Of a stretch of 64,000 bases of DNA, positions 57,785 to 62,699 are shown piece by piece. Position 1 is the first letter of the stretch, and every line of letters starts with the position of its first letter. The translations under genes were made by a program, and so were the position numbers. The notes below the pieces were generated by a model that saw nothing but the letters and a program-made list of their open reading frames with translations, had not been told where the DNA came from and did no database searches. Origin of the DNA: Longimicrobium sp. (GTDB lineage: Bacteria; Gemmatimonadota; Gemmatimonadetes; Longimicrobiales; Longimicrobiaceae); NCBI GenBank assembly GCA_036389795.1, contig DASVWD010000141.1:62001-126000 (forward strand), read 5' to 3'.

Positions 57785-58549
57785 ATGGCGGAGGTCCTCG
57801 CGGGCGGTGCCCCGCATTTCCTGGAGACGGGCGCGGCGGCCGCGCCGGGGCGTGACCCGGCGCCGGGCGCGCGCCCGCTCCGTCCCGTCTACCTCCTGGC
57901 CGACAGCCGGCTCCTCTTCCCGCACGGGGACGGGGAGCCGCTCCTCGCGCGCGTCCGCCGCCACCTCCCGCCTTCGCCGCGCGCCGCATACGTGGGCGCC
58001 TCCAACGGCGACGATCCGGCCTTCTACGGGATCTTCGCCGCCGCGGCGGAGACGGCCGGGATCGCCGCGTGCCGGATGATCCCCTCCGCGCCTTCTTGCG
58101 AGGACCGGGCGTTCCTGGAGGCGGCCGACCTGGTGCTCCTGGCCGGCGGCGACGTGGAGCGCGGCTGGCGGACGCTGTCCGTCAACGGGGTGGGCGAGGC
58201 GGCCGTGCGGCGCTTCCGGGCGGGCGCGGTGCTCGTGGGCGTCTCCGCCGGCGCGGTGCAGCTCGGCCTGCTGGGCTGGCCGGAGGGCGGCGCGGGCCCC
58301 GAGGCGGCCTTCCCCACCTTCGGCCTGGTCCCCTTTGTGGTCTCCGCGCACGACGAGGCGTCGGACTGGAGCGCGCTCCGGCGGATCGTCCGCGCCCGCG
58401 GCGGCGGCGTGGAGGGCCTGGGGGTCCCCGCCGGCGGGGGCGTGGCCGTGCACCCCGACGGCACGCTGGAGGCGCTCCGGCGGCCGGCGTGCCGCGTGGC
58501 CCTCTCCGGGGGCGAGGCCGCCGCGTGGCTCCTGGCCCCCGCGGGGTGA
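57785..58549 (+). CDS. S51-family peptidase homologue (cyanophycinase/dipeptidase E-like)
   Basis: 254 residues. Contains VYLLADSRLLF, YVGASNGDDPAFY, the S51-type LLAGGDVERGW and the nucleophile elbow GVSAGAVQLG with Ser154. It resembles the class I glutamine-amidotransferase fold of S51 but lacks the cyanophycinase-specific HFNQRGR region, so the substrate may be different (alpha-Asp peptides or another). Its stop overlaps the phosphoesterase start (GTGA). The window has a true cyanophycinase at 17692, so this is a second, divergent S51 member. Confidence 0.82.
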   Translation: MAEVLAGGAPHFLETGAAAAPGRDPAPGARPLRPVYLLADSRLLFPHGDGEPLLARVRRHLPPSPRAAYVGASNGDDPAFYGIFAAAAETAGIAACRMIPSAPSCEDRAFLEAADLVLLAGGDVERGWRTLSVNGVGEAAVRRFRAGAVLVGVSAGAVQLGLLGWPEGGAGPEAAFPTFGLVPFVVSAHDEASDWSALRRIVRARGGGVEGLGVPAGGGVAVHPDGTLEALRRPACRVALSGGEAAAWLLAPAG

Positions 58550-59334
58550 GCGGCGTGCGCATCTTCGCCGTCTCGGACCTGCACACCGACTTCCGCGAGA
58601 ACCGGCGGCTGCTGGAGCGGATCCCCGCCGCGGAGCACCGGGGCGACGCGCTGATCGTGGCCGGCGACGTGGCCGACTCGCTGGAGGTGCTGGCCGAGAC
58701 GCTCGGTTTCCTGCGCGGCCGCTTCGGCGAGGTGTTCTTCGTCCCCGGCAACCACGAGCTGTGGGTGCGCGGCCGCGAGGGCGACTCGCTGGAGAAGCTC
58801 CGCGCCGTCCTCGCGACTTGCGAGGCGGCGGGCGTGCGCACCCGGCCGGCGCGGGCCGGCGGCGCGTGGGTGGTGCCGCTTTTCGCCTGGTACCATGCGG
58901 ACTTCGACGTGCGCGGCGAGGCGGTGGAGGCCGAGCTGGAGGGGTGGGCCGACACCTACCTCTGCCGCTGGCCGGCGGGGCTGGGGCGCCTGGACCGCCA
59001 CTTCCTGGCCATGAACGAGCCGCACCTGGTGCGCTACGACGGGCCCGTGGTCTCCTTCTCGCACTTCGTCCCCCGCCCAGACCTGGTGCCCCCGGTGCGC
59101 TGGCTGCGCTTCAAGGGGCTGCCGCGCGTGGCCGGCTCCGAGGGGATCGAGGCGCAGGTGCGGCGCCTGGGTGCGGCGGTGCACGTCTACGGGCACACCC
59201 ACATCGCCGGGGACCGGGTGATCGACGGCGTGCGCTACGTGCAGCACTGGCTCCGCGCGGGCGAGCCTCTCCTCAAGGAGGTGTGGGCCCCCGGCGGGCT
59301 CCCGCCCGAGAACGCGCTCCCGCTCTTCTGCTGA
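58546..59334 (+). CDS. calcineurin-like metallophosphoesterase
   Basis: 262 residues, GTG start overlapping the S51 stop by four bases. All metal motifs present: VSDLHTDF (D-x-H), VAGDVAD (G-D), PGNHELW (G-N-H) and VYGHTHIAG (G-H-x-H). These bind two metals and cleave phosphoesters or nucleotides. The specific substrate (cyclic nucleotide, lipid, Ap4A) cannot be told. Coupled to the S51 gene upstream. The CYTH-GHMP gene follows after 32 bases. Confidence 0.92.
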   Translation: MSGVRIFAVSDLHTDFRENRRLLERIPAAEHRGDALIVAGDVADSLEVLAETLGFLRGRFGEVFFVPGNHELWVRGREGDSLEKLRAVLATCEAAGVRTRPARAGGAWVVPLFAWYHADFDVRGEAVEAELEGWADTYLCRWPAGLGRLDRHFLAMNEPHLVRYDGPVVSFSHFVPRPDLVPPVRWLRFKGLPRVAGSEGIEAQVRRLGAAVHVYGHTHIAGDRVIDGVRYVQHWLRAGEPLLKEVWAPGGLPPENALPLFC

Positions 59335-59366: not shown

Positions 59367-61394
59367 ATGCTTTATCCGACAAAAATGAGCAGCGCATACG
59401 ACGACCGCCGCGCCCCCATGGTCCCCGTCTCCTCCGGCTCCGCCGGCGGGAGCGTCCGCGCGCCGGTCTCTCCGTCCTCGTCCGTCCAGACGCTGGACGG
59501 GGTGGAGCTGCCCGCCGCGGTCTTCACCAGCGACCCGCGGCTCAAGGCGGCGTTCATGCGCCTGGCGCCGAGCGAGGTGGCGTTCTTCGTCGCCCGCCCC
59601 GCCGCCGAGGTGGTCCGCATCTGCGCCGCGCTCACCGGCGTGGCTCCGCAGGTGCGGGCGATGCGGGACCGCTACTTCGACACGGCGGACCGCCGCCTGT
59701 TCGCGCGCGGCGTTTCGGTCCGGCTGCGCCATTACACCCGGCACACCCGGCCGCTGACCTTCGAGGTCATTGCCGTCTCGTGGCGCGGCGCGCGCGGCGA
59801 AGGGCCCCTGTACGCGCGCACCAACCGCGTTCTGGTGCAGACCTTCGAGCGCAGCGACGCCCCGGCGATGGCGGCTCTGCTGGCCCAGTACCGGCGCGCG
59901 GGGCTGGTGGAGGTGATGAGGATCAAGAAGAGGCGCACCGGGTTCGAGCTGCTCCCGGTGCTCGCCGAGTGCGAGGAGCGCGGGAGCCTGGCCGGGGTCG
60001 ACGCCCGGCCAATCGAGCGGCTCGACGCGCTTCGGGTCACCGACCAGGGCTTGCGAGTGCTGGTGGACGAGCTGCACGGCGTCCCCTTCCCCGAGCCCAC
60101 GATCGTCGAGGTGGAGTACGACCAGGCGCACGCCGGCGCGGCCGCCCGGCTGGTAGAGCAGCTGCGGAGCGCGCTCGGGCCCGACTGCCTGCGCCCCAAG
60201 GAACTCAACAAGATCGCCTATCTGCGGCGGAGCCTCTCCGCCCGCGTCCGGCGAGGAGAGAGGAGGATGAGCGAGATCGACATCGGCCCCGACATCGACC
60301 CGGGGGCGCGCTTCGACCCGGGCCAGCAGCTCCGCATCCGACCGGAGTGGTACCGCCGGGCGCGGCCCGTGCACCGCCGGGCACGCGTGGTCACGCCCGG
60401 GCGGTTGCACTTCCAGGTGATCGACTTCAACAAGATGCGGCCGGTGACCCCCGGCGCCGGCGGCATCGGCACCTCCACCACCACCGCCTGCAGCGAGGTG
60501 GAGATCACGGTGGGCGAGGGGGGCGGCGGCCCGGCGAGCGTGCCCACGGCCGAGCACCTGATTCGGCTCTTCACCCGCCTGGTCGGCTATGAGGGCGGCG
60601 ACCTGCACGTGTCGGTGCCGGCGCGGATCGAGCACGTGCACTCGGGCTACGGCTCGAACGTCACCTTCAACACGGGGGTGCTGGCCGGGCTCAACGCCGT
60701 CTTCGGCACTCCGTTCTCCGTTCCCGAGATGTGGGACATCCTCACCCAGAACTTCGTGGAGAACTCCGACGACGAGGCCGGGAAGCTCTTCTGGGGCGTC
60801 GACACCGGCGTGGGCGAGGCGGCGGTCCTCTACGGCGGCATCGTCTGGGTCGACGAGCACGCGCGCTACATCGGCAGCGCCGACGCCGACGGGCTGTGGC
60901 TGCTGACGGCGAAGGGCGACACCCGCACCTTCGGGAACGAGAAGCTGCGCGAGTTCGGCAAGTCCATCGAGCGCGGCGTGGGCGACCTGGACGAGTTCGA
61001 CGTCACGCAGGGGGTCACCTTCGACTACCAGGCCGAATACGGCGAGCGCCTGCTGGACTTCCTGGAGCGGCGGATGAAGCCGTACCTGCTGCGCAACGAC
61101 GCGCGCGGAATGCTGGAGCAGGGGTGGGAGCTGAATGAGGTGGGCAGCGTGGTGGTGCTGGGGACCATCTGGAAGGCGGACGTGCTCGATGCCATCCTGC
61201 GCACGGTGCGCGAGGCGGGCGGGATCTATTCCACCATGAGCTCGTCGGGGCCGTCGGTGTTCGCCGTGTGCGACAGCGAGGCGGCCGCGCACCGGGTGCG
61301 CGAGGCGCTGGAGCCGCGCTTCCCCGAGTACCTCTCCAACTACGCCGTGGGGCGCGCGGGGACGCGGCTCCGGGTGGAGATCGATCCGGCGTAG
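59367..61394 (+). CDS. CYTH (triphosphate tunnel) - GHMP kinase fusion protein
   Basis: 675 residues. Residues about 55-295 look like a CYTH/triphosphate-tunnel domain: RDRYFDTADRRLFARGVSVRL, TFEVIAVSW, MRIKKRRTGFELLP, IVEVEYDQ and CLRPKELNKIAYLRR give the alternating charged strands of the tunnel. From about 340 a GHMP kinase fold begins: GRLHFQVIDFNKM, HSGYGSNVTFNTGVLAGLNA in the place of the P-loop-like GLGSSAA motif, and STMSSSGPSVFAVCD as motif 3, closest in layout to beta-RFAP synthase. The join is at RRGERRMSEID. ATG 60267 there has GAGGAGAG upstream and could be an internal start. CYTH enzymes handle triphosphates or cyclise ATP; a fusion to a GHMP domain is unusual. Substrates unknown. 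Confidence 0.82.
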   Translation: MLYPTKMSSAYDDRRAPMVPVSSGSAGGSVRAPVSPSSSVQTLDGVELPAAVFTSDPRLKAAFMRLAPSEVAFFVARPAAEVVRICAALTGVAPQVRAMRDRYFDTADRRLFARGVSVRLRHYTRHTRPLTFEVIAVSWRGARGEGPLYARTNRVLVQTFERSDAPAMAALLAQYRRAGLVEVMRIKKRRTGFELLPVLAECEERGSLAGVDARPIERLDALRVTDQGLRVLVDELHGVPFPEPTIVEVEYDQAHAGAAARLVEQLRSALGPDCLRPKELNKIAYLRRSLSARVRRGERRMSEIDIGPDIDPGARFDPGQQLRIRPEWYRRARPVHRRARVVTPGRLHFQVIDFNKMRPVTPGAGGIGTSTTTACSEVEITVGEGGGGPASVPTAEHLIRLFTRLVGYEGGDLHVSVPARIEHVHSGYGSNVTFNTGVLAGLNAVFGTPFSVPEMWDILTQNFVENSDDEAGKLFWGVDTGVGEAAVLYGGIVWVDEHARYIGSADADGLWLLTAKGDTRTFGNEKLREFGKSIERGVGDLDEFDVTQGVTFDYQAEYGERLLDFLERRMKPYLLRNDARGMLEQGWELNEVGSVVVLGTIWKADVLDAILRTVREAGGIYSTMSSSGPSVFAVCDSEAAAHRVREALEPRFPEYLSNYAVGRAGTRLRVEIDPA

Positions 61395-61458: not shown

Positions 61459-61968
61459 TCAGGGGAACTCGCCGCGCAGCATCCTCTCGATCAGCTCGTG
61501 CACGCGCAGGCTCGCGTCGCCGGATGCCTCGGAGGGCTGAGGCTCCGGGCGCGGGGGACCCCACTCCAGCAGGCGGGCGACGGTGAACTGCGAGACCACC
61601 TTGTGGAAGCGCGCGGCGAAGCCCGGGTCGGCCGCGATCTTCTGGTCGAGGGCGGTGAGCGGGATGCGGAACACCACCGACTCGGTCGCGGCTCGCACGC
61701 TGGAGTACGGGAGCTGCTTGGAGACGTACGACATCTCCCCCACGATCTCGCCCGGCCCCAGCTGGTGCACCTCCGACATGTCGCGCTTCCGCGAGGTCAC
61801 CACGAAAGCCCCTTTCAGCACGATGTACAGGTCGCGCACGGGCTGGCCCTCGTGGATGATCGCCTCGCCCGGCCGCACCTGGCGCTTTTCGCCCACGGCG
61901 TAGGCCCAGGCCATGTCCTCGTCCGAAAAGTCGCCCATGTAGGGCGGTACCTGCGGTACCTTGCTCAA
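61459..61968 (-). CDS. cyclic-nucleotide-binding domain protein without HTH
   Basis: 169 residues from TTG 61968, with AGGAG eight bases upstream; ATG 61938 is the alternative. Its core is a CNB beta-barrel with VRPGEAIIHEGQPVRDLYIVL, LGPGEIVGEMSYV and PYSSVRAATESVVFRI. The phosphate-binding cassette is GEIVGEMSYV...SSVRA, with Glu and Arg in the usual places. A C-terminal helix follows and there is no DNA-binding domain. It may bind cAMP or another nucleotide and act on a partner. It converges on the CYTH-GHMP gene, whose CYTH domain could in principle make cAMP (inference). Confidence 0.88.
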   Translation of the reverse strand: MSKVPQVPPYMGDFSDEDMAWAYAVGEKRQVRPGEAIIHEGQPVRDLYIVLKGAFVVTSRKRDMSEVHQLGPGEIVGEMSYVSKQLPYSSVRAATESVVFRIPLTALDQKIAADPGFAARFHKVVSQFTVARLLEWGPPRPEPQPSEASGDASLRVHELIERMLRGEFP

Positions 61969-62210
61969 CTCTCAGGCTCCTGCGGGGTACGGCGAAGGAT
62001 GCAAGCAGAGACGCTGCAAAATGTTCGGCCGTCACAGCGAGGGCTGGAGAAAACTGGACGGTTGCGGCCCTGGAGGGACAGTAACGTCCGGTGCGGTGCC
62101 AGTCAACTATTTACAAAACTATCGTTTTCTTTTTGGCTCGTCGCACGGCGCGGAGCGTGCACGCCCGGCGCTCCGGGTGCGCGGGGACGAGACCGAGCGG
62201 AGGGGAAGGA

Positions 62211-62699
62211 GTGGCGCGGACGAGAGGCGGGGCGGGGCCGGAGTCCGGCGCGGTGCGGCGGCTGGACTCGCTGGCGTACCTGCTGGACGACTCGATCCCG
62301 ATCCCGGGGACGGGGCGGCGCTTCGGGCTGGACGCGGTGATCGGGCTGATCCCCGGCCTGGGCGACGCGGCGGGGTCGCTGCTGTCGGCGTACATCGTGG
62401 TGGAGGCGGCGCGGCTGGGGGCGCCCTTCCCCGTGCTGCTGCGGATGGTGCTGAACGTGGGGATCGAGGCGCTGGTGGGCGCCGTTCCCTTCGCGGGCGA
62501 CCTGTTCGACGCCTGGTGGAAGGCGAACGACCGCAACGTGCGCCTGCTGCGCCAGAGCGTCGTGGCGCCCGACTCGGCCCGCCGCTCCAGCGCCGCGGTG
62601 CTGCTGGTGGTCGTGCTCCTGCTCGTGCTGGTGCTGGGCGGGGTCGGCGTTCTCGCGTTCTTCGCCCTGCGCGCGATCCTGCGGGAGGGGGCGTTCTAG
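62211..62699 (+). CDS. DUF4112 membrane protein
   Basis: 162 residues from GTG 62211 (GGAGGGG upstream). The DUF4112 pattern is DSIPIPGTGRRFGLDAVIGLIPGLGDAAG, then MVLNVGIEALVGAVPFAGDLFDAWWKANDRN. One or two N-terminal hydrophobic regions and a final membrane helix (about 123-152). Family of unknown function in many bacteria. A CAGTGCCC hairpin starts three bases beyond its stop. Confidence 0.88.
   Translation: MARTRGGAGPESGAVRRLDSLAYLLDDSIPIPGTGRRFGLDAVIGLIPGLGDAAGSLLSAYIVVEAARLGAPFPVLLRMVLNVGIEALVGAVPFAGDLFDAWWKANDRNVRLLRQSVVAPDSARRSSAAVLLVVVLLLVLVLGGVGVLAFFALRAILREGAF

Follow-up and report, generated by a model that had tools for sequence, protein, structure and literature searches.

CYTH/TTM proteins such as thiamine triphosphatase, SaTTM, and AtTTM3 share a tunnel fold with ExExK as the hallmark, and DxY, RxR, and ExE motifs are also defined for the family (PMC8233210). 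CYTH domains are known in fusions with CHAD, HD hydrolase, exopolyphosphatase, nucleotidyl-kinase, and phosphoribulokinase domains, and in the plant proteins TTM1 and TTM2 an ExExK-less CYTH domain is joined to a phosphoribulokinase-type domain, with pyrophosphate as the substrate (PMC8233210). For the GHMP fold, the systems to be compared are ForT (PDB 6yqq, 8ap0) and PyfQ, both PRPP-dependent C-nucleoside synthases without a known kinase role, and beta-RFAP synthase of the methanopterin pathway (TIGR00144/NF040726). The PRPP site of ForT includes Arg-19 and His-99 (PMC8183095). Its Arg-135 and Thr-106 are essential for PRPP binding. Neither a CYTH–GHMP fusion nor any CYTH partner of the GHMP fold was found in the literature searched, in line with an earlier note on this DNA that knew of no such fusion; CYTH domains joined to other phosphotransferase domains are on record (PMC8233210).

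The window analyzed here, a stretch of 64,000 nucleotides from Longimicrobium sp., encodes a protein in which a CYTH/TTM domain precedes a GHMP-fold domain. The explanation that we tentatively favor, while giving it slightly less than an even chance, is that a rare two-gene module, fused here, combines a CYTH/TTM protein that lacks ExExK and a divergent GHMP enzyme of the beta-RFAP synthase/ForT branch, working by the mechanism proposed in the last section. The combination is genuine and rare, and the module weighs more than the fusion.

The reading frame and its CYTH domain

The first part of the locus comprises the following elements; the relatives are the two congeneric protein pairs introduced in the next section.

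58546–59334 (+), metallophosphoesterase gene, directly upstream of the module here and in both relatives
59367–61394 (+), fused reading frame, 675 codons and the stop TAG
59502–60251 (+), CYTH/triphosphate-tunnel-fold domain, residues 46–295 (Pfam, AlphaFold, Foldseek)
59574–59588 (+), position of the ExExK hallmark, here E-V-A-F-F (alignment, strand position in the model)
59667–59675 (+), DxY motif, D-R-Y (the same in all three proteins)
59715–59729 (+), SVRLR, the two tunnel arginines of RxR (alignment)
60108–60116 (+), ExE motif, E-V-E, being ExD (EVD) in the relatives (alignment)

Translation of 59367–61394 gives no internal stop over 675 codons before the TAG, and third-position G+C is 0.83–1.0 over the entire frame including the junction, as in coding DNA, which bears out the single continuous frame of 675 codons described earlier. 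The same frame stays open 5′ of the ATG at 59367, back to a TTG at 58335; the ATG is plausible as the start because it lies close behind the stop of the metallophosphoesterase gene (59334). The fused gene is present in one copy in the genome, on a contig of 162 kb.

The Pfam CYTH profile (PF01928) matches residues 86–199 with an E value of 2.7e-6 in the whole protein and of 5.7e-7 in the CYTH part alone, where the score of 30 bits exceeds the curated cut-off of 23.2; a CYTH/TTM profile match thus falls within residues 50–300, the stretch that had been read as a CYTH/triphosphate-tunnel-like domain. One of the five AlphaFold models of this part was good (pLDDT 72, pTM 0.74), and the best 40 Foldseek matches of the CYTH model were all CYTH/TTM structures, headed by human thiamine triphosphatase (5e-9), so that the domain assignment holds on all three counts. 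Together with the tunnel fold, the window protein has in common with thiamine triphosphatase, SaTTM, and AtTTM3 the RxR arginines (SVRLR), DxY (DRY), and the ExE-type acidic pair (EVE), but it differs from CYTH/TTM proteins in having neither the HF motif of class IV cyclases nor the WxRxR of thiamine triphosphatase, and in the hallmark itself. At the ExExK position, which sits on the expected strand of the AlphaFold model, ExAxF is found in the window protein and ExSxF in both relatives, the second Glu and the Lys being lost. With ExExK missing, a standard triphosphate chemistry is not supported for this part. Plant TTM1 and TTM2 are alike in coupling an ExExK-less CYTH domain to a second phosphate-handling domain; however, their partner is a P-loop kinase domain and not GHMP, and they also lack the ExE that the window protein keeps.

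The gene pair in relatives and the junction

Homologues of both parts occur in two of the nine other genomes of the genus (G300 and G301), with CYTH followed by GHMP in the same order as in the window, but as separate adjacent genes, the CYTH gene closing with TGA and the GHMP gene beginning 50 or 63 nt later; a survey of other genomes for the architecture thus yielded the pair in these two and the fusion in neither. Since the homologues recur in the same order in two congeneric genomes, the Pfam matches are not due to chance. The identity to the window protein is 54–56% for the GHMP parts and 39–45% for the CYTH parts, and across the three species the order is kept at 39–57% identity. Between G300 and G301, silent changes outnumber amino-acid-changing ones, most clearly in GHMP, for which dN/dS is about 0.4. 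The module is patchily distributed, being present in 3 of the 10 genomes of the genus, and the GHMP profile finds these three genomes among 21 of the family, all within this one genus. In samples of 394 genomes from the class and 395 from the phylum, the GHMP profile otherwise gave short matches only, nearly all of them to the C-terminal GHMP motif. No relative appeared in whole-protein and profile scans of plasmids and phages, or in viral contigs and GTDB r220 contigs, for which the scans use short exact peptides and may miss distant relatives.

In G180, another congener, the gene next after the metallophosphoesterase gene is related to the one at 62091–62699 of the window, with no module between; this neighbor likely marks the site without the module, an arrangement from which we infer that the module was probably gained or lost as a block. 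In the window, the gene at 62091–62699 (+) lies beyond one for a cyclic-nucleotide-binding protein (61459–61968, −), which is just 3′ of the module on the opposite strand. The metallophosphoesterase was considered as a specific partner of the module and rejected, two other congeners having kept this gene without the module. Just 5′ of it in the window is a gene of the Peptidase S51 family (57785–58549), of which no relative was seen beside the module in G300 and G301. A link to cyanophycin was dropped as well, because neither this peptidase nor a cyanophycin-synthetase-like ligase, found near the module in one relative, recurs beside it.

The two parts meet at a potential second start:

60254–60269 (+), internal ribosome-binding site AGGAG (60254–60258) and ATG (60267–60269), with AGGAG 8 nt before the ATG

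The CYTH domain of the window protein ends (KIAYLRR) where the proteins of the relatives end (KLAYLLG), about 12 codons before the ATG at 60267, and the GHMP part read from this ATG begins at the same point as the separate GHMP genes of the relatives. The Shine–Dalgarno-preceded ATG remarked on earlier is present, and from this internal site the GHMP part probably continues to be translated on its own as well. As to the origin of the join, either evolution has removed a stop codon or the assembly miscounts the bases here. It had been stated in advance that the parts being always separate genes in relatives, with a frameshift explaining the join, would speak against the fusion; separate genes they are in both relatives, and a frameshift is possible, though not demonstrated. 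We consider it unlikely that the fusion does not exist in the cell and that the two genes overlap by ATGA in an operon-like manner, a one-base assembly error or a very recent indel faking the single frame. Such an overlap would fit the separate genes of the relatives and the good ribosome-binding site and ATG at the junction, where the ATGA creates a +1-frame TGA (60268–60270) overlapping the ATG; yet an A after ATG is expected by chance in one of four cases, the frame and the codon-position signal continue across the junction, and the longest homopolymer there does not exceed three bases, making an assembly error less likely. As far as the sequences tell, the conserved evolutionary unit is the rare CYTH–GHMP gene pair, and the fusion is seen in this genome only.

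Fold and active site of the GHMP part

The elements of the second part are as follows.

60267–61391 (+), GHMP-fold domain of 375 aa, beta-RFAP synthase/ForT branch (Pfam, profile, HHalign)
60402–60428 (+), RLHFQVIDF motif, its Arg corresponding to ForT Arg-19 (profile, HHalign; PMC8183095)
60639–60665 (+), HSGYGSNVT phosphate loop, its His corresponding to ForT His-99 (profile, HHalign; PMC8183095)
60747–60821 (+), inserted and altered segment (Q)NFVEN...DTGVGEA, replacing the GRGRRSAIG segment (alignments)

Pfam GHMP_kinases_C matches residues 606–649 (3.5e-7; 31 bits against a curated cut-off of 21), and the N-terminal GHMP domain of Pfam reaches only 0.025, in two of the three members. A profile of the three GHMP sequences matches ForT at 2e-5, and HHalign of the GHMP part with beta-RFAP synthases encoded by genomes of this phylum gives 94.7–95.9% over about 275 columns. 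AlphaFold modeling of the GHMP part from three sequences gave no reliable model (pLDDT 33). The family cut-offs for beta-RFAP synthase are not reached (20.3 versus 113.5 bits for TIGR00144, and 22.8 versus 328 bits for NF040726). Homologues above the beta-RFAP synthase family cut-off were observed in 28 of the 249 sampled genomes of the phylum (loci L092–L118); a search of the window's own genome for TIGR00144 gave no match.

The earlier note had spoken of a GHMP kinase fold of the beta-RFAP synthase type, of which the fold and the type stand by the profile and HHalign comparisons, whereas "kinase" is probably the wrong name for the second part, being unsupported since the proteins related to this part over nearly the full length are PRPP-dependent glycoside synthases. 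That the GHMP part is nevertheless an ordinary ATP-using small-molecule kinase, with the CYTH part as a regulatory or substrate-binding domain, seems doubtful to us. The GHMP fold would allow it, the C-terminal motif is closest to homoserine kinase and IspE among the single-sequence matches, and the ForT residue that reads the 5′-phosphate of PRPP is lost; the kinase similarity, however, is confined to roughly the final 45 residues, as against the near-full-length matches of RFAP synthases and ForT, and the loop carries the His typical of PRPP users (HSG-G-S).

Of the PRPP-site residues, the equivalents of ForT Arg-19 and His-99 are kept; in the numbering of the GHMP part they are Arg 46 and His 125, both invariant. 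The RL-F-I and HSG-GS motifs are common to ForT, PyfQ, and the window protein. In the loop, aligned without gaps, Val 132 takes the position of Thr-106 and adjoins an invariant Thr 133. In contrast to ForT and PyfQ, the window protein lacks an equivalent of Arg-135, which is invariant among the aligned RFAP synthases (in all three proteins, the aligned segment is free of Arg), has Gly for Ser-142, carries about 15 inserted residues ahead of DTGVGEA, a new invariant motif in the Arg-135 segment, and is joined to, or encoded beside, a CYTH domain. With beta-RFAP synthase it shares the Asp of the LID motif, but not the conserved GR-RRSAIG segment or the pABA-side Arg (PMC6787355). As Arg-135 and the pABA-side Arg are both lost, a change of donor, of acceptor, or of the two together is probable, and PRPP, though possible, is not supported as the donor. 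Since one tested defining feature failed for each of beta-RFAP synthase, ForT-type synthase, and canonical CYTH triphosphatase, we set the window protein beside these families and not within them.

That each half is without residues essential in its characterized relatives, in a module found in so few genomes of the genus, could also mean a decaying pair of pseudo-enzymes with the folds kept and catalysis gone. We regard this as quite improbable, given that the new motifs DTGVGEA, NFVEN, and FPEP are invariant among the three proteins, that all the frames are intact, and that constraint is evident in the G300–G301 comparison.

Possible function of the module

The folds and families, the motif states, and the gene order in three species are established directly, and the chemistry is what we infer from them. 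In the favored explanation, that of an ExExK-less CYTH/TTM protein working with a divergent GHMP enzyme, the GHMP part would activate a diphosphate-bearing or nucleotide donor in the retained phosphate loop and pass a piece of it to a small molecule. The CYTH tunnel, with its arginines, DxY, and ExE kept, would then bind or remove the released phosphate chain, for example pyrophosphate as in plant TTM1/TTM2; alternatively, the tunnel may hold a phosphorylated substrate. The fold and family matches, the gene order kept in three species, the excess of silent changes, the retention of phosphate-binding residues in both parts, and the precedent of plant TTM1/TTM2, ExExK-less, fused to a kinase-type domain, and acting on pyrophosphate, count for this explanation. 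The loss of Arg-135 and of the pABA-side Arg counts against it, as does the lack of any recurring biosynthetic gene beside the module in the three module-bearing genomes. Adjacency, in three genomes only, would suggest that the two parts are functionally coupled. A bolder reading, which we offer as speculation unlikely to be right, is a new two-part enzyme whose ForT/RFAP-synthase-like domain, with its changed donor site, makes a glycosylated or phosphorylated metabolite, and whose dedicated, non-canonical tunnel domain drives or controls the reaction by taking care of the phosphate by-product.

For CYTH domains without ExExK, the pairing offers a hint at the substrate. The GHMP part marks a divergent branch of a small family making C-glycosides from PRPP, which is relevant to nucleoside drugs; it is an altered relative of sugar-joining enzymes, among them those with which the making of C-nucleoside antibiotics begins.

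Further proteins with a CYTH domain were also seen. In L085:862-2118 (G000:C223), an ExExK-bearing CYTH domain is accompanied by a C-terminal VAFDIVGYS... stretch that on visual inspection resembles a nucleotide cyclase of class III, with no Pfam match there; the codon G+C of this locus is far below that of the window, and the contig may be foreign to its genome. In several genomes of the genus, a PPK1-type polyphosphate kinase (Pfam PP_kinase_N, PP_kinase) lies in one frame with a CYTH domain that likewise shows no clear ExExK, as in L079:1429-3450 and L084:1372-3414 (G251, G298), and L078, L080, and L081 resemble these CYTH–PPK1 loci over the stretch read.
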